From positions 1-64,000 of IMG/VR virus record IMGVR_UViG_3300048597_000133: a DNA stretch of 64,000 nucleotides. One strand, given 5' to 3'. The number at the start of each line of letters is the position of its first letter. Position 1 is the first letter of the stretch. Origin of the DNA: a virus. A model generated the notes under the pieces. That model was given only the letters and a program-made list of their open reading frames with translations, did no database searches and was not told the origin of the DNA. The position numbers were made by a program, and so were the translations under genes. Below are positions 3,677 to 48,631 of this stretch, in pieces.

Positions 3677-3708
3677 AAGCGGCACTATGTCTGCTTACAG
3701 TACCGCTT
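3677..3708. other. Hairpin after tail lysin
   Basis: AAGCGGCACT (3677-3686) pairs with AGTACCGCTT (3699-3708), with one internal mismatch, around a 12-base loop. There is no U-tract on either side, so a bind site or integrase arm is as likely as a terminator. Confidence 0.5.
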
Positions 3709-3709
3709 A

Positions 3710-3758
3710 GTCAGGTGTTATTCTTTGATATACAATGACTTTGAGGATTTCACCTGAC
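3710..3758. repeat. 8-bp inverted repeat, candidate integrase arm sites
   Basis: GTCAGGTG at 3710-3717 is the exact reverse complement of CACCTGAC at 3751-3758, with 33 bases between. Its place between the tail gene and the tRNA half makes it a candidate integrase-binding pair. Confidence 0.5.
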
Positions 3759-3813
3759 GACATTAATCTGTCACTGTGTGGGAATTCTCGGGTGGATACC
3801 GCACATACGTGCT

Positions 3814-3852
3814 CTTGTAAGGCAGGCGCTCTACCAACTGAGCTAATCGCCC
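3814..3852 (-). pseudogene. 5' half of tRNA-Val(UAC), truncated
   Basis: Reading the minus strand from 3852 gives a canonical tRNA 5' half: acceptor GGGCGAT, D-arm GCTC AGTTGGTA GAGC, anticodon 5' stem CCTGC and loop CTTACAA with anticodon TAC. After the loop the sequence diverges. The 3' anticodon strand, T-arm and matching acceptor strand are missing (the T-loop position reads TATCCAC). It is therefore not a functional tRNA. It probably marks where integration splits a host tRNA-Val gene at the anticodon loop. Confidence 0.8.
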
Positions 3853-3921
3853 TTTACTCGTGCTTAACCACTATATCATAGGTTACCGTTTTCTACTAAC
3901 TTTTCAACGGGGTATCTCAAA

Positions 3922-5064
3922 ATGGCCGGTCAACCCAGAATCAAATTAGATGTTTTACCAGTATACCGAGGAATGGCTTCTTTATATTCAAGGGGTAATT
4001 CTTTGTCTGTAAGGCTACCAGATAAGTTAGGATTGGGACGTTATAAATTTATATCTTTAGGGTTACCAGCTAACGCAGAAGGAATAGGGCGGGCCATACA
4101 GATAGTCAACGACCTAAACAGAGATATAATCTACGACCGTTTTGATTTCACGCTAGAAAAATATTTACCTACCGCAGCTATAACAGAGCCACCAATTGAC
4201 TTATACGAATTGTGGTGTAAATATTGTGATTATAAGGAGGGTAAAGTTAGAGAGTCTACTCTAGAGTATCTACGCGTCACAATAGGCAGTAAGATACGCC
4301 TAATTCCTATACTTGACATAACTAAATCTGCAGCTATAAGTAAATGGGTAATATCTCATAATACAAAGGATTACGGCATTAGAGTATTAGCTAAAATTTC
4401 TGCTTTATACGAGTGGTCTATTCTCCATGAGTTGATTAACTCTAAAGAGGCTTTAAATCCATATAAAGGACATTTAGATAAAGCACGGAGCAATGTTATT
4501 GATATAGACGAAGAGCCCGACGAAGCCCGCCCACTATCTGACAGTGAGGTTAACAGCCTTATTACTGGGATAAGGCCTGTATTCCGTAACTTCGTAAAGT
4601 ATTGCTTTTTAACCGGATGTCGCCCTTCAGAAGGGATTGGTCTAGAATGGCGTGATGTAAGAGAAGACCATCTTTTTCTGGGTCGCACTTTACGGTGTAA
4701 GAACGGTAAAGTCTTTATGTCGCCTAAGAGTAAGAATAACCGTAACTGGCTATTTCCTAAAACAGAAGAGTTAGCTGACTTATTAGATAAAACTCCTAAG
4801 TTAAGTGACCAATGGGTATTCGCTCAAGATAAACCTAAAATCCAATATTTGTCTTATGACTCTTACTATAAAAACTGGAAAAAGATAATGCCAGAAGAGA
4901 CTAGTCCTTATAACACTAGAGATACATTTATTAGCCGGCAGATTTCATTAGGAATGCCGCCGGCGGTCGTAGCCAAGTGGGTTGATAACTCAGTCAGAGT
5001 TATAGAAAAGCACTACCTAAAAATAGGTCTAGATGTAGTACCCTACTCATTACCAGCTTTATAG
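3922..5064 (+). CDS. int: Tyrosine recombinase / phage integrase
   Basis: Site-specific recombinase that would insert or excise the element at a tRNA gene. The 380-residue length is typical. Catalytic positions visible are R234 (TGCRPSEG), K269 (MSPKSKN), an altered H-x-x-R box reading Y330-N-T-R333, W353 and nucleophile Y365 (EKHYLK). Replacement of the first His by Tyr is seen in one integrase group and does not by itself mean inactivity. The gene follows the half tRNA-Val by about 70 bases, as expected for int beside attP. It converges with and overlaps the minus-strand gene ending at 5043 by 22 bases. Confidence 0.9.
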   Translation: MAGQPRIKLDVLPVYRGMASLYSRGNSLSVRLPDKLGLGRYKFISLGLPANAEGIGRAIQIVNDLNRDIIYDRFDFTLEKYLPTAAITEPPIDLYELWCKYCDYKEGKVRESTLEYLRVTIGSKIRLIPILDITKSAAISKWVISHNTKDYGIRVLAKISALYEWSILHELINSKEALNPYKGHLDKARSNVIDIDEEPDEARPLSDSEVNSLITGIRPVFRNFVKYCFLTGCRPSEGIGLEWRDVREDHLFLGRTLRCKNGKVFMSPKSKNNRNWLFPKTEELADLLDKTPKLSDQWVFAQDKPKIQYLSYDSYYKNWKKIMPEETSPYNTRDTFISRQISLGMPPAVVAKWVDNSVRVIEKHYLKIGLDVVPYSLPAL

Positions 5065-6006: not shown

Positions 6007-6573
6007 CTAGGGGATGTTAACGCTTAATACATGACCGGTTGAGCTTACTATTATTCCAGTCGCCTCAAACTCTTCTACTGCTTCTAAGAGTCTATTGTCC
6101 AGACCTAGACTTATGTCTAATAAGGCTATGTACGGGTAATGGAAATTTAGGTTAGCGCCGCCGGCCAACATTGCAGTCATGTAGATAGCTTCATATTCAG
6201 ACAGCCCCCACATGATGTAGAGGCCGACTATTAGGCTATGACTTAAGACCTGATAATTCAACTGATAGACAAATCTTACTAAGTCACATTCGAGCAGTAA
6301 TTTGTTATGGGCCTTATATATAGCTCCTATGCAGTCGAATGCTTCTGTGAAGTAATCTATCTGGTCAAATTCGTTGTCTAGCTCATATAGGGGGTCTATG
6401 ACTGGGTCATGGACTAACCCAATAGTGACACTAGGTGTAGTTTCATCTTCAATGGGCGGCGGCGCCCGGTCAAACCCCCCTACATAAATCAAGCCATCTG
6501 AAGGTTTAATCGCTGTAGAAAGGTTTGACCATTGAAAACTAGTCAGTAACTCTAACCTTGGCAGGCTAGACAT
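6007..6573 (-). CDS. Unknown acidic protein downstream of nrdA
   Basis: A 188-residue acidic protein with no motif I can name. The middle is rich in hydrophobic and aromatic residues (SHSLIVGLYIMWG), but I do not see a clear transmembrane signal. Its start overlaps the end of nrdA by 22 bases, so it is translationally linked to the reductase. Confidence 0.65.
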   Translation of the reverse strand: MSSLPRLELLTSFQWSNLSTAIKPSDGLIYVGGFDRAPPPIEDETTPSVTIGLVHDPVIDPLYELDNEFDQIDYFTEAFDCIGAIYKAHNKLLLECDLVRFVYQLNYQVLSHSLIVGLYIMWGLSEYEAIYMTAMLAGGANLNFHYPYIALLDISLGLDNRLLEAVEEFEATGIIVSSTGHVLSVNIP

Positions 6574-8813
6574 TCGCCTCCTCCATCTTCTGAATGATAA
6601 CTTTGGGTAACAACTTTACGTTCTAGTTCTTGTTGACGTTTAGCCGCTAATTGTCCAGACCGCCCTTCAGCATTCTGAATAGCTTGTGACCGACAATAAT
6701 ACAACGTCTTTAGACCTAAGCGCCAGGCTTCATAGTGAACTTTAGCAAAGTAGGTAGGGTCAGGCTCCGCAGTAAAGAATAGATTTACCGACTGAGACTG
6801 ACCTTGACGATGGCGGTCCATTTCTATTTGGCGCTCGGCAGCTTGCTTGATAATAGCCATCTGGTTAATCTCACGGGCAGTTAAGAATACCTCACGCTCT
6901 AACTCAGATAAGAAATTTAAGTGCTGTACACTACCACGAGCTTCTGTAATAGAATCCCAAGTCTCTTCATCATCACGACCATACTCAGCTAATACTTTCT
7001 GTAAGGTGGGATTATGGAAGAACATGGAGCCACGGCTAGTCTTCTTCTCAAAACTATTAGCAGCAAATGGCTCAATACCAGCACTGACATGACCACAGAT
7101 AATACTGTTAGTGACCGTAGGAGCACAAGTTATGGTGTGAGTATTATGGACACCGGTGCCTTGACACCATTCTGGTTCACCATACTCTTTAGCCATATCT
7201 ACGCTAGCTTTGTGAGACTCATCGGCTAAATGACGGAAGACAGCTCTATTTAGCAAGCTTGCTCCGAATGATTCGAAAGGAAGCTTACGTTCTTGTAATA
7301 AGGAATGCCAACCCATGGCCCCTAAGCCGAGCATACGACTTTTAACAGCAAAGCGATAAGCATTATCAAAGAAGGGTTCCCCTTGAATCTTATCAATGTA
7401 TTCTTGCATGACACCATCTAGGAACCAGGTAGCCCAATATACAGCGTCCGTCTCGCGCCATTCTTCCCACTTAGCTAAGTTCATAGAACTCAAACAGCAG
7501 ACGAAGGTATGACTTGGGTCAGTGTACGCGGTTATCTCGGAACAGTTGCCGGTCATTCTACCGTCCGCTAAAGCGAACATCTTTGTAGTAGGCACGGAAG
7601 TGCAATAGACCGGCACCGGTTCTTCTAGATAAACCCTGGTTACTTGTTTGATTAAGCCGGTGGCTTTATTCTTATGGGTTAATACTTCTAGCAGTGCCGA
7701 GTTAGGACGTGCATAGTGGTCATATAATTCCCGAGCTGTGATGAATTTGGTTTTTTGTGTGCCGACGACACCAAACTCTTGGACGGGTACCCTGTGTTCT
7801 GGTGTAACGTCTATGCTGGTGTCGTCGTTATAGATGATTCTTATAAAGCGGTCATATATCCCTTTCTGTTCAAAGGAGCTATTTGATACCCAGTCTTTAC
7901 CATCCCAGATACTTACTGTCTTACCAACTAAGTCTTTAATGGGGACGGCGCCGTCTTTAGTCCTTACTAACTCTTCACCCTTTAAGCATATATTAGAGGT
8001 CTTTACCTTAAGTCCCAAACGTTCGTAGCCTAGAGGATTAGTCCGATTAACGTTGTCAGTGAAGAATAAGTAAGGTTCGCCGGTTTCAATCCTAGCTCGT
8101 AATATCTGACCAAATAATTCTCGTGCTTCGCCGCCGGCTGATATGGCTTCCATATCTTCATCGGTTAAACATACAGCATGGTGTATATTCATACAGCGCT
8201 GGTTTTCATCTCCAGTAGGGCGGCGCATATTAATGAATTCTTTGATGTCTGGATGACTAAAGGGGAGGTATGCTGCCGATGCGCCCTTTCTTACCCCGTT
8301 CTGGCTGACACCTACGGTAGTAGAATCTATAATCTTACACCAAGGGATAACACCCTCAGAAATATATCCACCACTAATAGAGGCTCCTCTGCCTCTTATA
8401 TCCCCCATATAAATGCCTACTCCAGCCCCTTTAGAACTTAGGTGGGCTAGCTCAGTAACACTGTGGAATATCCCACCAAGAGAATCTTGTACGTGTGTAC
8501 TATTGCACGAGATCGGGAAACCCCGTGTGGTACCAAGATTAGCGAGTACAGGGCTGGCTGGTCCGAGCCAGCCGAGCCACATAATCTTAAAGAACTTCTG
8601 GGCCAGTTCTGGTCGTTTAAGTGATCGGGCAGAGGCTTCAGCTAGTCGAACATAGGCATCCCAAGGAGACTCACCGTCTAATAAGTAGCCCGATTTGAGC
8701 ATGTAATAGCCCTCGGCGGTCATCCAGTCAGGCACTCCATTATCCGGTTTAGTAAAACCCTTGGTGGTCTGATATTTAATGTGGGCTTGAGGCAACTTAG
8801 GGAAGATAAACAT
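6552..8813 (-). CDS. nrdA: Ribonucleotide reductase large subunit with intein
   Basis: Catalytic alpha subunit of class I RNR, converting ribonucleotides to deoxyribonucleotides. The precursor has 753 residues; removing the intein at residues 276-423 leaves about 605. Family landmarks include PASPVLANLGT, the cysteine in FPISCNST, and the spliced joint SNI-CSEI, in which C424 corresponds to the thiyl-radical cysteine (C439 in E. coli NrdA). The C-terminus ends in a redox pair, ECLACQG. It follows nrdB in the same operon after a 72-base gap that holds a hairpin. A phage-encoded RNR usually supplies dNTPs when host pools limit replication. Confidence 0.93.
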   Translation of the reverse strand: MFIFPKLPQAHIKYQTTKGFTKPDNGVPDWMTAEGYYMLKSGYLLDGESPWDAYVRLAEASARSLKRPELAQKFFKIMWLGWLGPASPVLANLGTTRGFPISCNSTHVQDSLGGIFHSVTELAHLSSKGAGVGIYMGDIRGRGASISGGYISEGVIPWCKIIDSTTVGVSQNGVRKGASAAYLPFSHPDIKEFINMRRPTGDENQRCMNIHHAVCLTDEDMEAISAGGEARELFGQILRARIETGEPYLFFTDNVNRTNPLGYERLGLKVKTSNICLKGEELVRTKDGAVPIKDLVGKTVSIWDGKDWVSNSSFEQKGIYDRFIRIIYNDDTSIDVTPEHRVPVQEFGVVGTQKTKFITARELYDHYARPNSALLEVLTHKNKATGLIKQVTRVYLEEPVPVYCTSVPTTKMFALADGRMTGNCSEITAYTDPSHTFVCCLSSMNLAKWEEWRETDAVYWATWFLDGVMQEYIDKIQGEPFFDNAYRFAVKSRMLGLGAMGWHSLLQERKLPFESFGASLLNRAVFRHLADESHKASVDMAKEYGEPEWCQGTGVHNTHTITCAPTVTNSIICGHVSAGIEPFAANSFEKKTSRGSMFFHNPTLQKVLAEYGRDDEETWDSITEARGSVQHLNFLSELEREVFLTAREINQMAIIKQAAERQIEMDRHRQGQSQSVNLFFTAEPDPTYFAKVHYEAWRLGLKTLYYCRSQAIQNAEGRSGQLAAKRQQELERKVVTQSYHSEDGGGECLACQG
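7545..7988 (-). other. Mini-intein in NrdA at the radical cysteine
   Basis: A 148-residue intein spans C276 (CLKGEELVRT) to N423 (RMTGN), with extein C424 as the +1 nucleophile. The block B signature is TPEH (337-340). The penultimate residue is Gly rather than the usual His. There is no room for an endonuclease domain, so it is a minimal intein. It is inserted immediately before the catalytic radical cysteine, so the enzyme is dead until splicing occurs. Confidence 0.93.
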
Positions 8814-8885: not shown

Positions 8886-11345
8886 TTATGCAAAGACGGC
8901 GTCCCAGTCAATAGCTTCAGTGTTAAATAACCCTTTAGCATAGTTAGAAACGTGAGCAGCAAAGAAATCAGTGCTGGCTTCGCCGCCGGTCATCAAATAA
9001 AACCAGCGTTCAATCTGCCGAGCTGCTTCTTTATCAACGTCAAAGATAGGCTCTAAACCTAGCTCTTCTAACTTTTGATTTGTACGCTGTTCGATGAACG
9101 ACTTAACGATGTGGGCGTTTAGCCCGGGCAACTCATGGTTATCAAAGACCATATCAATGAAGTTATATTCCAACTCCACTACAGTGCGCGCCGCATCGTA
9201 CAAGGTGTTGTTCAAGCGCTCATTGTTTAACGAGGGGAACTCTGAACGTAGTTGTCTAAATAGCCAGCACCCAGCATTACTGTGCATACAGTTGCCGGAT
9301 ATCATCACTGACTCTTTATACCTGGTGATCAAAGTCCCTTTATCCACAGTCGCGCAGTAGACATAACCTGAGTAGGTCTTAGTGTCTTTGGTGCCACACC
9401 TGGTATTCTTCCAAGCTTTGTTATCCCAAATCTTTAAACCATGACTATAACCACGAAGGGGATTAGGATAATATTCCGCTGCCCTACCAGATAAGACACA
9501 AAGAACTTGCACCATATCTGAAGCTTCTTTGTTGTTAGTGTAGAATACCTCACAAGTCCTATTAGCCGGTCTACCACGACGCCAGAATCGCAATTCCATA
9601 AGGAACTGGTCTATCCAACTTTGTGTGCAATGGGTCAACACTATCCATTTATAGCCAGCAGGCTTTAAATGACAGTCTTGTATTTTGGCTTGGAAATTGA
9701 CGCTATAAGGATTGTCCCTGACTACTGTGCAGATACCTTCTACTTCGTATAAAGCAGACACGAGCTTGTGCATCTCATCAATCTTGTGTTGTTCTCTCCT
9801 CTTAGAGAAAGTAACAGTGAGTGTATAAAGACCATCTTCATCAGGCATATCTACCCGACCACCAATGAACTCTGTGATTAAATAGAGTCGTTCAAGGGGT
9901 GTCATAGAAATCTTATTGCCTTGTAGCTTATACCCGGCAATAGGTATTTCATATTTGTTTTGTAAGTTAAGGTCGATAGCCTTAATTTTGTGGGTGCATT
10001 TTTTATTAAGATTGCGGACTACCATGTCATGGTCTTTGGTAACCCGACACTTGACAGCAGCTTTACGCTTTCCACCAAGCTCTACCATCACACCTGAGTA
10101 GCGCTTCTTAATGATTTGCTGTGGTCTTACATAGCTAATCTCTTGGGTTTCCATGTCGTATTGAGCCAAAAGACAATGCTGCGGCAGCGAATCAAACCGG
10201 ACCCAGCCTATATCAGTTAACACTTCGGTGTCTGGAGTATGACATTCATCACGCACGCTATAAGCAATCACCTCAGATACGCCTTTGAGCATGTTCTCTG
10301 ATGGTAGTTCCAAGTAGTTGCCTTTAAGACCGTACTTGTCTGTGATATCTTTGCCTCCAGCTCGGTCTAATTCTTTGATTAATCCCCGAGCAGAGAAGTA
10401 TAGTAGGACAGCAAAGTTTGCATAGAGGCTAACCCCTTCAGCAAAAGCAGAGTATACAGCTAGAGATACAGCTCTGTCTTCTAACGAGTCACTGCGGACA
10501 TTAATAAGATTTTCTATCTTGGCGGCTGCACTAGGTTCTCTTAAGAAGGCATCATGCTCTTCTAGGTTTAGTGTCTCATTCAGGTAGTTATAAGACTTGC
10601 TATGGATACTATTACCAGTGATAGTAATCTTACCGTTACGTCTGCACACTACAGTAGTATCTGGCATAGACACACAGTAGACGTATCCATTGTATTGCCG
10701 CTTAATGGGGCGCGGTAGGTGGCTAAACTCTATCAACTCATCTATTTGGATTGTAGTTAGTAGACTGCCAGTGTCAGTGCGCTCTAATAAATCCCCAGCT
10801 TTGATTTTATCTAAATCCCCGTTAGCTAAAATCACTAACATGTCATGGTTAGGTGTTACACATACATCAATGTGCTCACCTAAGAAATGGACCATGTCGC
10901 CCGTGTAACGACGCTTAATGACCTTCTCGGGCTCAGCATAACTAATAGTGCAGGTCTTCATATCCATCTGAGCTACCTTGTGTTCTTCTGTAATATCTGG
11001 GCAAGGTACCCAACCTTCAGTAGTCAATAGCTCAGTCTCAGCGTCGAAGCATTCCATACCTGCAAAGGTAAACGCCATCAGGCTAATTTCCGGCTTAGGA
11101 AACCACTGAGCCACCTTCTGTGCCCAGTAGTTACCGATATACAATTCCATCTGCGTAAAGCCGAGTAGCGTGCCGCTGATTATCTTTTTTTCCTCTTCGG
11201 TCAGCTTAGTCTCCCAATCATGCACAGAGCTTGTCATTACACACTGTGACCACAGCCAATGAGACTGTTGTTGCTTTACAAAGTACTCATGTGCCTCTGG
11301 GTATTCAAAAGGCTGATACGACTTTCTTGGTGTGATTAACGTCAT
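8886..11345 (-). CDS. nrdB: Ribonucleotide reductase small subunit with two inteins
   Basis: Beta subunit of class I RNR, which holds the diiron (or Mn/Fe) radical cofactor. The precursor is 819 residues; removing inteins at 99-245 and 368-685 leaves about 354, a normal NrdB size. Splicing rebuilds both metal motifs: E98-S-I-H248 and E367-C-M-H688. Y252, four residues after H248, matches the tyrosyl-radical position (HSKSY). E67, 31 residues before E98, fits the first ligand, which is Asp in E. coli. The gene starts the operon after a 215-base leader. Without protein splicing neither metal site exists. Confidence 0.93.
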   Translation of the reverse strand: MTLITPRKSYQPFEYPEAHEYFVKQQQSHWLWSQCVMTSSVHDWETKLTEEEKKIISGTLLGFTQMELYIGNYWAQKVAQWFPKPEISLMAFTFAGMECFDAETELLTTEGWVPCPDITEEHKVAQMDMKTCTISYAEPEKVIKRRYTGDMVHFLGEHIDVCVTPNHDMLVILANGDLDKIKAGDLLERTDTGSLLTTIQIDELIEFSHLPRPIKRQYNGYVYCVSMPDTTVVCRRNGKITITGNSIHSKSYNYLNETLNLEEHDAFLREPSAAAKIENLINVRSDSLEDRAVSLAVYSAFAEGVSLYANFAVLLYFSARGLIKELDRAGGKDITDKYGLKGNYLELPSENMLKGVSEVIAYSVRDECHTPDTEVLTDIGWVRFDSLPQHCLLAQYDMETQEISYVRPQQIIKKRYSGVMVELGGKRKAAVKCRVTKDHDMVVRNLNKKCTHKIKAIDLNLQNKYEIPIAGYKLQGNKISMTPLERLYLITEFIGGRVDMPDEDGLYTLTVTFSKRREQHKIDEMHKLVSALYEVEGICTVVRDNPYSVNFQAKIQDCHLKPAGYKWIVLTHCTQSWIDQFLMELRFWRRGRPANRTCEVFYTNNKEASDMVQVLCVLSGRAAEYYPNPLRGYSHGLKIWDNKAWKNTRCGTKDTKTYSGYVYCATVDKGTLITRYKESVMISGNCMHSNAGCWLFRQLRSEFPSLNNERLNNTLYDAARTVVELEYNFIDMVFDNHELPGLNAHIVKSFIEQRTNQKLEELGLEPIFDVDKEAARQIERWFYLMTGGEASTDFFAAHVSNYAKGLFNTEAIDWDAVFA
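9291..10244 (-). other. Large intein in NrdB second EXXH motif
   Basis: A 318-residue intein runs from C368 (CHTPDTEVLT) to N685 (VMISGN), with C686 as +1. Block B reads TKDHD (436-440). The middle holds a degenerate LAGLIDADG-like domain: LYLITEFIGGRVD stands where an active enzyme would have an acidic GDG-type motif, and FLMELRFWRRG may be the second. It therefore probably splices but no longer cuts DNA. Its N- and C-terminal parts clearly resemble the other NrdB intein (EISYVRP versus TISYAEP; YSGYVYC versus YNGYVYC). Confidence 0.9.
10611..11051 (-). other. Mini-intein in NrdB first EXXH motif
   Basis: A 147-residue intein runs from C99 (CFDAETELLT) to N245 (KITITGN), with Ser246 as +1. 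Block B is TPNHD (164-168). The penultimate residue is Gly. It sits directly after the ligand Glu98 and splits E-S-I-H. It lacks an endonuclease domain and is homologous to the larger intein in the second EXXH motif. Confidence 0.93.
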
Positions 11346-21585: not shown

Positions 21586-23076
21586 CTACTGGTTGTAATT
21601 TATAGAAGAGGAGCCGAACCATTTAGACCCATTGTTCCTAGTCACAAAGGTAAATATATGTATTTTTGAGTTAGTTAAGGTAGGTGCGGTATTGCCAGGC
21701 CAGCTTACAGATGCTGGCCATGTCACAGTCCCACTATTATGTGTAAGTTCTAAAGTAAAAGCATAAACTGTGCCGTTACTAGGCGCATTAGAAAAAGTAA
21801 AAGTAGAATTACTACTTATAGTCTTTGTGTAATAGTTACCTAACGAGCAGTCGATATTAAGAGCCGATACAGTTGTTGCTGCCCGCGTATAGCGCTCTGC
21901 CATCTTAGACTGAACAAATTCAGTCGTAGCAAATTGAGTAGTATTAGTAGTCAGAGATGGTGTAGGTCCAGCCGGCGTACCAGTAAATGTTGGAGAGTTA
22001 ATTGGAGCCTTAGCATCTAAAGTAGACTGCAGATTGGTTACAGTAGATATTGCTTGTGTCCCAGTGTGATTAGCTCTAGCTTTATTTGCTGTATCACGGG
22101 CATTTAACTGCGTAGTAGTCTCATAGTTAGTCACTGCACTTTGTACAAAAGCAGTGGTAGCTAGCTGAGTATTATTAGTACCTCCTGCAGCAGTGGGTCC
22201 AGCCGGCGTACCAGTAAACGTTGGAGAGTTAATTGGAGCCTTAGCGTCTAAAGTAGTCTGCAAACCTGACACGCTAGAAATAGCTTGGGTGCCAGTGTGA
22301 TTAGACCTAGCTCGATTAGCAGTATCTCTGGCGTTTAGCTGCGTAGTAGTCTCATAGTTAGCTAGAGCTGATGCTTGTAGTGCACTGGCCGCTAAGGAGC
22401 CTTGAGCTGCCGTGGCAAAATCTCCAGTGTTAGCTAACGCTGCAGTCCCAAAGGCTGGCTTACCAGTGATATCAGCCCAATCAGCAATTAAGTCCAAGTT
22501 TCCTAATTCATCTAGGTCGATAGCGGCCAGCTTTTGTTTTTCTAAGGTAGTGTAATTCTCTTCTGTCGCTACGTAGTTAGGGTCAATTACTATGTCTGGG
22601 TTATAACCCATAACAGTAACGCCGATGTCCACTTCCTTTAATATCGTGGAGTCGGCGTCTTCTTTATACCCAAGCGCAGACTCTACATAACCTAGAGCAG
22701 TATTGATATCTTCTAGCTCATCACTTAGTCCAGTAATGGTGCTTATACTTTGAGTGCCACTATGATTAGACCTGTCCCTATTAACTGAGTCTCTAGTGTC
22801 TAGTTGACTTGAAGTCTCATATTCAGCAAGGTCTGAAGTTTGTAGTGCTGACTCAGCTAAAGTACCTTGAGCGGCGGTGGCGAAGTCTAAAACATCAGCC
22901 AGAGCCGCCGTCCCTAAGTCTGGTTTATTAGTTACTTGAGTGTCCCAGTCGACGCTAATTTCAGACTCTAAATCGTTGAGCTTAGCTTTCTCTGCATCTG
23001 TATAAGCGTTAGTATCCGGTTGGCTTTCGTATAAAGCCTTAATCTGCCCGCCGGTTAGGTGATTTACATTGCTCAT
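21586..23076 (-). CDS. Tail fibre with repeated shaft modules, copy 1
   Basis: 496 residues. The N-terminus has the module TGGQIKALYESQPDTNAY, then TDAEKAKL, also found in the fibres at 46525 and 48146. The shaft has three degenerate repeats: 'LNARDTANRARSNHTGTQAI' type units, and two 'INSPTFTGTPAGPT' units each followed by TTQ-x-ATT-x-FVQS, as in many trimeric phage fibres. The C-terminus is a beta-rich cap. Direct repeats within the shaft invite recombination and host-range change. Confidence 0.85.
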   Translation of the reverse strand: MSNVNHLTGGQIKALYESQPDTNAYTDAEKAKLNDLESEISVDWDTQVTNKPDLGTAALADVLDFATAAQGTLAESALQTSDLAEYETSSQLDTRDSVNRDRSNHSGTQSISTITGLSDELEDINTALGYVESALGYKEDADSTILKEVDIGVTVMGYNPDIVIDPNYVATEENYTTLEKQKLAAIDLDELGNLDLIADWADITGKPAFGTAALANTGDFATAAQGSLAASALQASALANYETTTQLNARDTANRARSNHTGTQAISSVSGLQTTLDAKAPINSPTFTGTPAGPTAAGGTNNTQLATTAFVQSAVTNYETTTQLNARDTANKARANHTGTQAISTVTNLQSTLDAKAPINSPTFTGTPAGPTPSLTTNTTQFATTEFVQSKMAERYTRAATTVSALNIDCSLGNYYTKTISSNSTFTFSNAPSNGTVYAFTLELTHNSGTVTWPASVSWPGNTAPTLTNSKIHIFTFVTRNNGSKWFGSSSINYNQ

Positions 23077-23194
23077 TAGAGGTAACAGTGCTAGACGCTT
23101 CTGCTACTAACTTAATAGCTTGAGGGTAATTGTAATCAGTGACCAAAATCAGTGGATTGGCGGCGGCTCGTTCAACAAAGGTAGTGTTAGGCAT
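23039..23194 (-). CDS. Small protein overlapping fibre start
   Basis: 51 residues from ATG 23194 to TAA at 23039-23041, beginning MPNTTFVERAAANP. It overlaps the upstream gene by 8 bases and the fibre start by 38, and is the only plausible content of the 110-base gap. Function unknown; it may act mainly by translational coupling. Confidence 0.5.
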   Translation of the reverse strand: MPNTTFVERAAANPLILVTDYNYPQAIKLVAEASSTVTSNEQCKSPNRRAD

Positions 23195-43131: not shown

Positions 43132-43364
43132 GGGCGGTCACTTAGTTCCTTGAGCTTTTGTTTGCCTTTTTTGGTTAAGGTGAGCGGAGCTGACTGTTTA
43201 AGCAAATCTTTACCCTTGAGAGATTTAAGGGCGTCGGCAATTTGCTGTTTAGTTAGCCCCCCGCAGTCTATAGGATAAGCAATAGGGTTGTGGTCTATAA
43301 AAGACTGCAACACCAATTGCTCATCTTCTGTTAACTGCGGACCAAAGTTATTGGACTGGGTCAT
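43128..43364 (-). CDS. Small winged-helix-like protein
   Basis: 78 residues. TKQQIADALKSLKGKDLLKQ followed by a lysine-rich strand (APLTLTKKGKQKL) is a typical winged-helix layout. Its TGA overlaps the polymerase ATG (ATGA), and its start overlaps the GHKL gene end by 17 bases. It could regulate or assist the polymerase operon. Confidence 0.6.
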   Translation of the reverse strand: MTQSNNFGPQLTEDEQLVLQSFIDHNPIAYPIDCGGLTKQQIADALKSLKGKDLLKQSAPLTLTKKGKQKLKELSDRP

Positions 43365-45828
43365 GGGCGGCGGTGGCGCGTAAGGTCTCTAACTCATTAA
43401 TAATGTCTAACAACTGCCACGACTTATCCATGTCATAGCTATATGGATAACCAGTTACTAGCTCTCGGTACTGCCAAATCACGTCACCCATAAGCAAGTA
43501 AGAGTCTTCAACTTTTCTATGTAAGCCTACCTTTATGCGACGGTATTCTTCACACAAAGCTCTAAATTCAGGACTCCAATCAGCAATGCGCTTAGTGGTT
43601 ACTGGGATAAACCTGCCCAGTCTCATACGAATGCGGGGGTAGATATTACCACACATGTTTGAGTCTCCGGCAAAATCTAGAATGTCTGCTGAGTGTTTAC
43701 TTTCTAACCATTCGAAAAGGCTCTGTCGAACTTCTTGTATGCTGACCCAATTACATAAACCAGCTTGCCTTAAGGTCGTGATCTTATCTGCCGCGTTGCT
43801 TGATACAGTAAACCGAAAAGGATGGTAGTGCTTAATGAAACAGCGCGGCGCCATAGCTACACACTTATAGTTCTTATCAGTGGATATAAACCCATGGTCA
43901 TTATCAGACTCTAGATAAATAATCCGTTCAGATAATAACGCTTCGTTAATGTCATCTAAGTTCTCTACAGTGTGTACATGCGCCCAGCTACCTACTGGAA
44001 TGTAATCTTTGGACGTGTTACGTAGCTGACGCATCAAAACAGCCAGGTTTACCCCAGTCTTAGCCTCCACCTCATCCTTCTTACTTTTGTTTGTTGGTTT
44101 AGACTTAGGGCTGCTATATACCCCCAGATAATTAATAAGGGCGCCATAGGACTTAAATAGACGGTCGATTTCGTTAACAGATGCCTCGCCGTTAGCTAAC
44201 TTTAAGACTAATATTGGTCCATCGACACGTTCTTTATAGACCCGCTCAAGTTGCTTCAATGTCACATCTTGCCCGCGCGTCGCCACTACAGTAAGACCTA
44301 AGCCCAACACCTTTAACCTATTTATCTTTGTGCCACCTTTCGGCACCGCTTTAATCCTATGATGTACGTAGTTATCCCGTAGCTCCTTACATAGGTCATC
44401 TTCATACCTATAAAGGTGATCTTCGTGAGCCAGGATATAAAACTTAGAGACAGCCCAAGACGCATTTATGTCGTTGTTATTATCTTGATAAGACTTTAAC
44501 CCGGTTGCATGTGGGTGCAAAAGGTTAATGGTCTTAGTATCCCCTTCGTATAAGAACTCAGGGTACGTAGATTCAGCATGTTCCCCGCCTTTATAGCAGA
44601 GAGTATACTCACCAAACTTGACGGTGTAAGTAAGGTTATTCAGCCTATAACAAGACAACACAGCCAAGACCTTACAGCAAAACTTAAAGAACGTGTTAGC
44701 TAAGGTCGTCGCGTTGTCTAACTCATCTACGTTCTTTATATAGACATCAAAAGCCTTTTGGATATGTCGCCCTATTTCCTGGTTGAATACTTCTGTAAGA
44801 GCTTCGTAGGCAAGCTGCTTTACGGATTCTAAGGTCAACCGTTTGAGGTCATTATCTAGTAGCTCTTCGCGACTAGTGTTAAGAGGTAAATAGCCGGGCG
44901 GTACCCGAATAACCACAATATAATGTGACTCAGTACTTAACTGCCTAAATCGTTCAACGAAGGACAAAGCGGTTTCAATAGTATCTTGCCGTCTAAGTCT
45001 GAGACCGCTACCTGACGAGTAATATGACCTGCGGTTAAGTGGGTATAATGCACCGCCCAAATCTAAAACTAGATACTCACCACTAAACCGGTTAGCCAGA
45101 TAAAAGTCTACAGTGATGTCTACACCTTTATTGTCTTTGATAGGTAAAGACCAGCACTTAAACTCTTCTAGATTATGGTTAAACCACCAGTCATCGTCTT
45201 CACTATCTTCGTGAAAAGACTCTCCTTTGAGAATATTGACTTTATACCTAGACACCTCCGTTAAATCTAAGACATTGGAGATTATGGTGTCCACAGAGGT
45301 TTTAGCCGTAGGTATAGTCACCTCTAATCCAGTATTGTCGGCGGGCACCGGCTCCGGCCCAGACCAAACAGTCAGCTCAGGGATGTGATACTCATTGAGA
45401 TTACAGAGGTATAGAGTTTCATAGCCGCCGTGAAAACTACGGATATAGAACTGTTTGGAGAATGCTAATGGCGCTAAGCGACCTACACCGTAAGCGCCAA
45501 TGGCGTTGGCATTATCCTCCTTAGTGCTTTCTCCAATGTGGGTATATAACCCGTGCATTTGCTCATCACTTAGCCCTGGCCCGTGGTCTCGAATAACAAC
45601 CCGGTCTTTTTCTATAGTGATGTCTACGGCTAATCCAGGCGCTACTTCGTTATTAGCGTCGTAGGCATTGCTAATAATCTCCCGTAGGGCGGCGGTCAGT
45701 GGGTTGGCATATTGCTGGGTAATTAAGAGCTGACTTAGTTTAGCCAGTTGCTGTCGCTCTAACTTAATAGTGAACTCTTTACCAGACTCGTTTTTAATGG
45801 CAGTGCGGGATTCTAAGATGGGTTTCAT
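43348..45828 (-). CDS. GHKL ATPase, rIIA/Hsp90-like
   Basis: 826 residues. Bergerat ATP-binding motifs: N box LREIISNAYDAN (N54), G1 IRDHGPGLS (D81, G83) and G2 NAIGAYGVGRLAP (G111-G114). Size and order fit phage rIIA-like or MutL/Hsp90-like ATPases. T4 RIIA affects lysis inhibition and host-factor exclusion; an equivalent role here is inferred. It ends in the middle of a replication block, directly upstream of the polymerase. Confidence 0.8.
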   Translation of the reverse strand: MKPILESRTAIKNESGKEFTIKLERQQLAKLSQLLITQQYANPLTAALREIISNAYDANNEVAPGLAVDITIEKDRVVIRDHGPGLSDEQMHGLYTHIGESTKEDNANAIGAYGVGRLAPLAFSKQFYIRSFHGGYETLYLCNLNEYHIPELTVWSGPEPVPADNTGLEVTIPTAKTSVDTIISNVLDLTEVSRYKVNILKGESFHEDSEDDDWWFNHNLEEFKCWSLPIKDNKGVDITVDFYLANRFSGEYLVLDLGGALYPLNRRSYYSSGSGLRLRRQDTIETALSFVERFRQLSTESHYIVVIRVPPGYLPLNTSREELLDNDLKRLTLESVKQLAYEALTEVFNQEIGRHIQKAFDVYIKNVDELDNATTLANTFFKFCCKVLAVLSCYRLNNLTYTVKFGEYTLCYKGGEHAESTYPEFLYEGDTKTINLLHPHATGLKSYQDNNNDINASWAVSKFYILAHEDHLYRYEDDLCKELRDNYVHHRIKAVPKGGTKINRLKVLGLGLTVVATRGQDVTLKQLERVYKERVDGPILVLKLANGEASVNEIDRLFKSYGALINYLGVYSSPKSKPTNKSKKDEVEAKTGVNLAVLMRQLRNTSKDYIPVGSWAHVHTVENLDDINEALLSERIIYLESDNDHGFISTDKNYKCVAMAPRCFIKHYHPFRFTVSSNAADKITTLRQAGLCNWVSIQEVRQSLFEWLESKHSADILDFAGDSNMCGNIYPRIRMRLGRFIPVTTKRIADWSPEFRALCEEYRRIKVGLHRKVEDSYLLMGDVIWQYRELVTGYPYSYDMDKSWQLLDIINELETLRATAAHDPVQ

Positions 45829-46184
45829 TAGTTCTTGATGGGGAATTTGGACTCGAAGGATTCTTTGAGGGCATTAGCTAACTGAGTGCCTTTATCTAAG
45901 GCCATATCACTTAGCTCTTTAGGGTCTAATCCTGGATAATCTTCAATTAGCTGCGGGAGATAAATTATGGCGCAGGTCAATGCTTCAGTTGCCCAATACT
46001 CGTCGGAATTAATATAAGGGTCTTGCTCTTCAGCTAAAAGCGTATAGAGGTCGCATAACTGGTCTTCGATGGAAGACAGGTATTGATCCCGGTCAGCGAT
46101 TTGTTTGAGGTAATGGGCGCCGTAGACCACGGCCTTCTGAATAGTCTTGAGGTAGTTAAGAACGTGAGTCAGTGGATTGTTCAT
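45828..46184 (-). CDS. Unknown helical protein upstream of GHKL ATPase
   Basis: 118 residues, nearly all helical, mildly acidic (SSIEDQLCDLYTLLAEEQDP). It overlaps the ATPase start by a single base (TAATG type). Position recalls the rIIB partner in T4, but I see no sequence support for that. Confidence 0.6.
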   Translation of the reverse strand: MNNPLTHVLNYLKTIQKAVVYGAHYLKQIADRDQYLSSIEDQLCDLYTLLAEEQDPYINSDEYWATEALTCAIIYLPQLIEDYPGLDPKELSDMALDKGTQLANALKESFESKFPIKN

Positions 46185-46434: not shown

Positions 46435-46524
46435 GCGCGGCGGTTGATAACCTTTTTGTTTAGCGGCGGCTAGAAGTGGACTAAGTTGAGTGTAGTCGAG
46501 CTCCTATTTTGTCTATGAGTAGTT

Positions 46525-47673
46525 ATGGCTAGTTTAAAAGAGCTGTACAGATTACAGAGCACGCTGACGGGCGAGCAGGTTAAGAGTTTATACGAAGGGG
46601 AGTTTGACACTAACGCCTACACTGATGCTGAGAAAAATCGCTTAGCTAGTCTTTATTACACCCCTACAGCCACTAAGACTTCTAACTATACAGCTGTTAA
46701 TGGTGAAGAAGTTAGGTGTGATACTACAACCGCCGGGTTTACAGTAACCCTACCTCTTAGTGGCTCTGTAAGGATAGTAGACATAGTGGGCACAAATATA
46801 AACAGTGGCTTTGGGACTAACTCGTTGATGTTGGTAACACAAGCTGGCCACACTATATTGGGTGAGTCAGACTTAGAGTTAGATGTTGGCGGGCTCCGTC
46901 TTGTGCTGGCTTTGTATGGTAGTGACTGGAAGGTTATAGATGCTTTAGGACCACAATTTGCTGCCCTTGAATGGGATATGGTCCTTAATAAGCCGGCATT
47001 TGGCACAGCAGCGTTAACAGATAGTACTGAGTATGCTACGGCAGAACAGGGTGCTAATTCTGTTCAGGTGACAGGTAACCAAACTATTGCTGGAATAAAA
47101 ACTTTTACTTCTCCCCTTATCCTTCCTGACAATTCCCGCATCAATGGGGTAGAGCATTTTTATAGAACTACTAAGCCCACGGCAAGAGGGGATGGGAGTG
47201 CGTTGGTTGCTGGTGATAAGTGGTACAAAAAAGATACTGGAGAAGAATGGTGGTGGAATGGGACTTATTGGGTTGGGGATATCATTGTAGCCTCAAATTC
47301 TTCAAGTCACAGTATAACTACCACAACGGAAGGGTATGGGGTTCCTTCGCCCACCTACCCTCAAATACTGATTGAATTTATTTCTAGCTACTTTTATCTT
47401 AATGATATCGATGCCACTATTGATCCAGAAAATTATCATGTATTAAGACTTTATAGAAATGGTAGCACTTATGTTGCTGATCTTTTAATCCGTCCCGCTT
47501 CGGGAACACAGTCTGGCGCAATTAATTACATTAGCCCTCAACTTTCAATTTATTCGTCAACAACCGGGGGGTTTCAGTTTTCGTATCGTTACGACGCAGG
47601 TAATGGTACTCCTGGCCCTGTGAATACGCAATCGGTTGTCAAGACTTTGTATTACAGAAATGTATTTATCTAA
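46525..47673 (+). CDS. Tail fibre, cassette 2
   Basis: 382 residues. The N-terminus has the shared module LTGEQVKSLYEGEFDTNAY and TDAEKNRL, and the middle a LNKPAFGTAALTDSTEYAT shaft unit also found in the 21586 fibre. The C-terminal 150 residues are unlike the other fibres and probably form the receptor-binding tip. Its stop overlaps the next start by a base. Confidence 0.85.
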   Translation: MASLKELYRLQSTLTGEQVKSLYEGEFDTNAYTDAEKNRLASLYYTPTATKTSNYTAVNGEEVRCDTTTAGFTVTLPLSGSVRIVDIVGTNINSGFGTNSLMLVTQAGHTILGESDLELDVGGLRLVLALYGSDWKVIDALGPQFAALEWDMVLNKPAFGTAALTDSTEYATAEQGANSVQVTGNQTIAGIKTFTSPLILPDNSRINGVEHFYRTTKPTARGDGSALVAGDKWYKKDTGEEWWWNGTYWVGDIIVASNSSSHSITTTTEGYGVPSPTYPQILIEFISSYFYLNDIDATIDPENYHVLRLYRNGSTYVADLLIRPASGTQSGAINYISPQLSIYSSTTGGFQFSYRYDAGNGTPGPVNTQSVVKTLYYRNVFI

Positions 47674-48143
47674 TGAAACGCAACTCAACTACTTTATTCC
47701 TCGTGTCCCCCGGTGCTACTACTCCCATTCCATGGGTAAATGGTGCGCCTGATTTCTCTGCTTTCACAGAACCAACGCTATCCGTTTTGCAAAATAGCTG
47801 GCAGGCATTTCTTGATAGTGGGCAGGAGTTAGAGGTAGTACCTGATCCTGAACCAATAGTAGAACCTCCTACACCTAACTGGGATGGTTTTAACGCCTAT
47901 ATGCTCACCGACTCCACTTTCAAAACATATCGTGATTCTGTAAGACAAGCTGACGGCGACCTTAACGCTGCTTTATTCAACGCGTATGCGTTAGTAGTGA
48001 GTAATGGAGTAGCACCATTCGCTTTAATATGGGGCGTCTGGTGTCAGTTAGCCCAAATTACTGCAGAGGATAAGGAGCAAATAGCCACCGCAGCTGAAAG
48101 CTTTAACCTTACTAACGACTTTATTAACACTATAAGGGGGTAA
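47673..48143 (+). CDS. Tail-fibre cassette accessory protein, copy 2
   Basis: 156 residues. Shares the C-terminal half (PNWDGFNAY, ... NDFINTIRG) with 20213-20749 and 49428-49934. The N-terminal part differs, fitting a fibre-matched partner. Ends in a stop within a few bases of the next fibre gene. Confidence 0.78.
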   Translation: MKRNSTTLFLVSPGATTPIPWVNGAPDFSAFTEPTLSVLQNSWQAFLDSGQELEVVPDPEPIVEPPTPNWDGFNAYMLTDSTFKTYRDSVRQADGDLNAALFNAYALVVSNGVAPFALIWGVWCQLAQITAEDKEQIATAAESFNLTNDFINTIRG

Positions 48144-48145
48144 CT

Positions 48146-48631
48146 GTGCCTAAGATATCAGAAAAATTAAAGCTAAAAGGGCACTTAGACGGCACGGAAA
48201 TCAAATCCTTATACGAAGGCGTCCCAGATACCAATGCTTTTACTGATAGTGAAAAGTATAAGCTTAATAACTTAGTAGGCAATATAGAAACTTTTATTCT
48301 GCTACTTACTCCACCGGAAGTAAATATCACCCTCGACGCCAATATACCGGCTATCAATTACTTTCCTTATGCAATGACCGTCACTTCTATACTGGCTAGT
48401 TTAGATATAGCACCCACTGGTTCGGCGGCAGTGATTAATGTGTTCAAAAACGGTACAACAATGCTCAACGCCAGCAAGTTAACCATAGCGGCTGGGACTA
48501 AAACTGTGGTCGGCACTTTGGTCACTACCACCATTGCGGCTGGGGATGTGATTAGCGCATCCATCGACCAGATTGGGGCGACGGTTCGAGGTCAGTATTT
48601 AAGCATAACAATTAATGGGGAGAGGGCTTAG
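48146..48631 (+). CDS. Short tail-fibre protein, cassette 3
   Basis: 161 residues. The same N-terminal module (LDGTEIKSLYEGVPDTNAF then TDSEKYKL) is followed directly by a beta-rich domain with no shaft. It probably attaches the next protein (48634) to the tail. Confidence 0.8.
   Translation: MPKISEKLKLKGHLDGTEIKSLYEGVPDTNAFTDSEKYKLNNLVGNIETFILLLTPPEVNITLDANIPAINYFPYAMTVTSILASLDIAPTGSAAVINVFKNGTTMLNASKLTIAAGTKTVVGTLVTTTIAAGDVISASIDQIGATVRGQYLSITINGERA

Follow-up and report, generated by a model that had tools for sequence, protein, structure and literature searches.

A probable cyanophage attachment site carrying the 5′ half and the leader of a Synechocystis-like tRNA-Val(UAC) gene

What is half of a tRNA gene doing next to an integrase gene in a phage? 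The question arises in the window, the 64,000-nucleotide stretch analysed here (positions 1 to 64,000 of the virus record IMGVR_UViG_3300048597_000133). Its minus strand reads GGGCGATTAGCTCAGTTGGTAGAGCGCCTGCCTTACAAG from 3852 to 3814, and all 39 bases are identical to nucleotides 1-39 of cyanobacterial tRNA-Val(UAC). The original prediction proposed a match from the acceptor through the anticodon loop followed by divergence, and a gap of about 70 bases to the integrase gene. We find both: beyond nucleotide 39, only 11 of 60 bases are identical between the window and a Synechocystis 3′ half, which is the chance level, and 69 bases lie between the tRNA 5′ end and the ATG at 3922. The 39-mer occurs once in the window, and none of 100 shuffled windows contains a match with 3 or fewer mismatches. 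In a collection of bacterial genomes it is present in 38 stretches, mostly cyanobacterial, and in 37 of them it starts a complete tRNA-Val(UAC). The sole exception, L031 in Tildeniella torsiva, is a 5′ half that has been displaced. We take these 39 bases to be the tRNA part of a putative attP core. The coordinates of this and the other features are given in Table 1.

Table 1. Coordinates of the features discussed (window positions unless a locus is named).
Feature	Position	Strand	Basis or remark
Tyrosine integrase, 380 aa	3922..5064	+	PF00589, PHROG, invariant catalytic residues
tRNA-Val(UAC) 5′ half, nucleotides 1-39 (from the acceptor to one base past the anticodon loop)	3814..3852	-	Exact match to cyanobacterial tRNA-Val genes
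Copy of the leader of Synechocystis tRNA-Val (40 bp; contains -10-like TATGATATAGT)	3853..3892	-	37-38/40 bases identical in three Synechocystis genomes
Probable crossover: anticodon loop CTTACAA plus adjoining stem base	3814..3821	-	Inferred
Two inverted repeats on the side away from the integrase gene; possible arm-type sites or terminators	3677-3708 and 3710-3758	
Tail-like proteins with LTGxQxKxLYExxxDTNAYTDAEK-like motif	21589-23103, 46519-47670, 48128-48628	-, +, +	
tRNA-Ala(UGC), complete but degenerate (mismatches in the D and anticodon stems)	L130:2830-2903		Upstream of the integrase gene
Tildeniella torsiva duplicate copies	L089:3850-3888 and L090:15551-15589		

The identity with host DNA is not confined to the tRNA. 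The 40 bp 5′ of it (3853-3892), overlooked in the earlier reading, are a copy of the host tRNA leader, and the shared block is 79 bp long (3892-3814). A search for a host tRNA-Val with these bases, the check that the original prediction had proposed, finds the 79-bp block in three of the five Synechocystis genomes searched, at one place per genome and with 96-97% identity. Of the 20 bases preceding the leader, only 3-4 are identical to Synechocystis, and the limits of the block, as read from the bases, are sharp on both sides. The leader may act as a promoter, to judge from its -10-like TATGATATAGT; a consensus scan of this strand of the leader reports no convincing -35 and no consensus promoter.

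In a sample of 386 cyanobacterial genomes that took in two of the Synechocystis genomes with the block, the matches in Synechocystis reach 130-134 bits and the best of the others 80.6; we therefore assign the putative host, with fair confidence, to Synechocystis or a close relative. No lysogen, attL, attR or excision product of this phage was found in the five Synechocystis genomes searched, and a comparison of 20 kb of the phage with the same five genomes, for spacers and prophages, gives just 26-37-base matches with E-values of 0.12 or worse. Neither the 39-mer nor the leader pattern occurs in the other viral contigs searched.

Which enzyme would act on this block? The neighboring gene product is placed among the tyrosine recombinase integrases by a Pfam PF00589 match (E = 5.9e-7, above the cut-off) and by a match to a PHROG integrase (E = 6.7e-28). 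Its residues of the R-K-R-H/W-Y set, R234, K271, R333, W353 and Y365, are invariant across an integrase alignment of 8 rows. In the HxxR motif, Y330 stands in the place of the first H in the window integrase, and all 8 rows have a Y there.

The displaced 5′ half and host leader at the end of an integrated prophage would also appear identical over 79 bp, and thus the site could be an attL instead of an attP. An end of that kind would have a host flank, and there is none: on the leader side lie the integrase gene and a phage ribonucleotide reductase, and on the opposite side a phage baseplate-hub/peptidase gene. Because there is phage DNA on both flanks, we read the site as a predicted attP, and we regard a prophage end as very improbable.

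In the model that we favor, 3814-3892 would be the attP core of a temperate cyanophage, and the integrase would exchange strands, at the anticodon loop, between this core and the tRNA-Val(UAC) gene of a Synechocystis-like host. At the integrase-side junction this would rebuild the tRNA, with its 5′ half from the phage and its 3′ half from the host, such that the phage could enter the matching gene of Synechocystis and leave the tRNA intact. The original host promoter, together with the host 5′ half, would be moved to the opposite end of the prophage and would fire into that end. The rebuilt tRNA would probably be transcribed from upstream DNA supplied by the phage, because the block includes the 40 bp of host leader. 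We hold this model, as to the core, the integrase acting on a Synechocystis-like tRNA-Val(UAC) and the 5′ half supplied by the phage, to be highly probable. Against it stand the negative searches for a lysogen and for phage matches in the five Synechocystis genomes, and the negative scan of the leader for a -35 box or consensus promoter.

We have evaluated the model by joining the sequences in silico, which is a test of sequence compatibility and not of the reaction. Joined within the anticodon to the Synechocystis 3′ half, the phage block yields a tRNA-Val(UAC) that matches the host gene at every base, as expected of an element with a 5′ tRNA fragment; the reciprocal junction gives no tRNA, and neither does the attP alone. 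The anticodon loop CTTACAA is the probable region of exchange, because the identity ends at nucleotide 39 and the 3′ fragments found near related integrases mostly start at nucleotides 28-33. With an identity that ends at nucleotide 39 and a crossover predicted in the loop, the site falls among the anticodon-centred tRNA attachment sites.

Could the phage instead carry a whole tRNA gene of its own to replace a host gene destroyed by integration, as in tRNA-dependent lysogeny? The integrase family does target tRNA genes. However, ARAGORN detects no complete tRNA anywhere in the 97.5 kb viral record, the window included (the record is classed as linear and may be incomplete). Moreover, the shared block is 79 bp rather than about 10 bp, and the tRNA that it rebuilds is perfect. 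We give this possibility very little credence. The mycobacteriophages known for this strategy (PMC10865867) are similar in that the integrase targets a tRNA gene, the function of which must survive in the lysogen. In those phages the shared sequence is about 10 bp long and the loss is made good by a complete tRNA of the phage, whereas here no tRNA was found in the record and the 79-bp core would rebuild the gene.

Homologous integrases are frequent in cyanobacteria, and most have a tRNA gene or fragment near the integrase gene, usually 120-360 bp upstream. The tRNA fragments are split at the anticodon. In order to count the arrangements, we removed duplicates and left out loci without a recognisable tRNA part, and assigned each class by the tRNA end or half that faces the integrase gene (an inference where only one junction is seen). 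Counted in this way, 51 of 54 distinct relatives have the 3′ arrangement, and 3 have the 5′ arrangement: G383 (tRNA-Gly), L087 (tRNA-Ser-like) and L130 (tRNA-Ala). G383 is a genome in which a 2.6 kb element holds a homologous integrase between the full tRNA-Gly gene, at the integrase end, and a 33-bp 5′ copy of that gene at the other end. The integrated form thus has a whole tRNA on one flank and a displaced 5′ fragment on the other. L087 has a displaced 5′ half of its tRNA-Ser-like gene. The layout of the window recurs in homologous elements. An attP with the 5′ half of tRNA-Val(UAC), as originally proposed, is the best-supported reading: homologous integrases adjoin anticodon-centred tRNA sites, and there are real 5′-half duplications in other integrated elements.

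The nearest integrase found (40% identity) is that of L130, a viral contig of 216,563 bases (IMGVR_UViG_3300035670_000008). A first scan of viral contigs with the integrase alone had given no match. In L130, the tRNA-Ala has the same place and orientation relative to the integrase gene as the half tRNA in the window, which favors our model, but it is complete, so the two layouts are not identical, and this counts against our preferred model. The leader (about 42 bp), tRNA and trailer of L130 have their best match, among the genomes searched, in the genus Synechocystis (85%), and the site may be an attP that copies a whole gene.

The degenerate tRNA of L130 can also be taken to favor a different origin for the half tRNA in the window, as the relic of an ordinary tRNA gene of the phage that has decayed, losing its 3′ half, and has nothing to do with integration. 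Complete tRNA genes are common in cyanophages, and other phages with similar sequence have annotated tRNA genes at the match. On the other hand, decay would have to leave the 5′ half 100% identical and the 3′ side at chance, and the limit between them would have to fall at the anticodon loop; it would have to retain the 40-bp host leader as well, and to do so 69 bp from the integrase gene, where the tRNA sites of the relatives stand. We consider such decay improbable, and prefer an attP.

In a tree, the integrases of the window and L130 are sisters (support 100/100). Since the tree requires two label changes for the window, L130 and G383 (L087 is outside the tree), the 5′ arrangement is likely to have arisen at least twice. 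The tRNA of the phage has the same orientation relative to the integrase gene as in those relatives that have opposite-strand 3′ halves upstream; no reversal of the integrase is needed, and it is the retained tRNA half that would have changed side.

As another 5′ duplication, a contig of Tildeniella torsiva has the tRNA-Val leader and 5′ half in two copies 69.7 kb apart, around phage-like genes. Between the copies there is neither a homologous integrase nor a PF00589 integrase, and we have rejected this element as kin, retaining it as an analogy only. It would be a 5′-type element that either uses another recombinase or has lost its integrase.

How unusual is this attP? Islander reports a 5′ tDNA fragment in 159 of 3,919 islands, about 4% (PMC4383910). 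Those islands and the phage have in common that the element carries the 5′ part of its target tRNA, with an anticodon-centred crossover and a tyrosine integrase; the difference is that those are integrated islands and this is the predicted attP of a free phage. The stretch copied by the phage also takes in 40 bp of host leader. It is well supported that the attP is of an already known 5′-fragment kind, uncommon rather than new, and we see its copied host leader as its least ordinary feature.

The pTN3-like integrases of archaea also use the tRNA 5′ half and part the tRNA from its promoter (PMC8371274; PMC5495485), and such separation is described as seldom encountered in bacteria (PMC8371274). 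Their attP is inside the integrase gene, which is disrupted on integration, whereas the core here is 69 bp upstream of an intact integrase ORF, outside the pTN3-like arrangement. The passages cited describe no host leader for the pTN3-like integrases, in contrast with the 40 bp in the phage (PMC5495485, PMC8371274). The cyanobacterial anticodon-loop integrases with 3′ fragments are of the same family as the window integrase and use the same tRNA sublocation, and several share the tRNA orientation. Those elements carry the 3′ half, so that a rebuilt tRNA stays under its native promoter; the phage carries the 5′ half.

Thus, the attP probably targets the tRNA-Val(UAC) of Synechocystis and would give the rebuilt tRNA a new upstream region. 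As for why the leader is there, we suggest tentatively, with slightly more doubt than belief, that it was captured together with the 5′ half so that the rebuilt and apparently single-copy tRNA-Val(UAC) keeps a host-like transcription. This would be common to a small clade of phages infecting Synechocystis, with anticodon-loop integrases that switched the retained half and compensate with promoter-proximal DNA. The model predicts a temperate phage of Synechocystis, a widely used laboratory cyanobacterium, with an exact integration site, and a possible tool for site-specific integration in that organism. Both tRNA halves would be used within one integrase family at the same kind of anticodon-loop site, and this allows one to ask how elements change between two modes, one in which the tRNA stays with its native promoter and one in which the element takes control of its expression.

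Other features of the window are worth recording. The two ribonucleotide reductase genes (8886-11345 and 6552-8813, both on the minus strand) contain interrupting inserts that resemble inteins; by eye, the small subunit has two and the large subunit one, and the only Pfam indication is a sub-threshold Intein_splicing match in the small subunit. An rIIA-like protein is encoded at 43351-45873 on the minus strand (PHROG RIIA lysis inhibitor, E = 7.3e-39), alongside the integrase in the same phage. Finally, a motif approximating LTGxQxKxLYExxxDTNAYTDAEK recurs near the start of three tail-like proteins, encoded on both strands.
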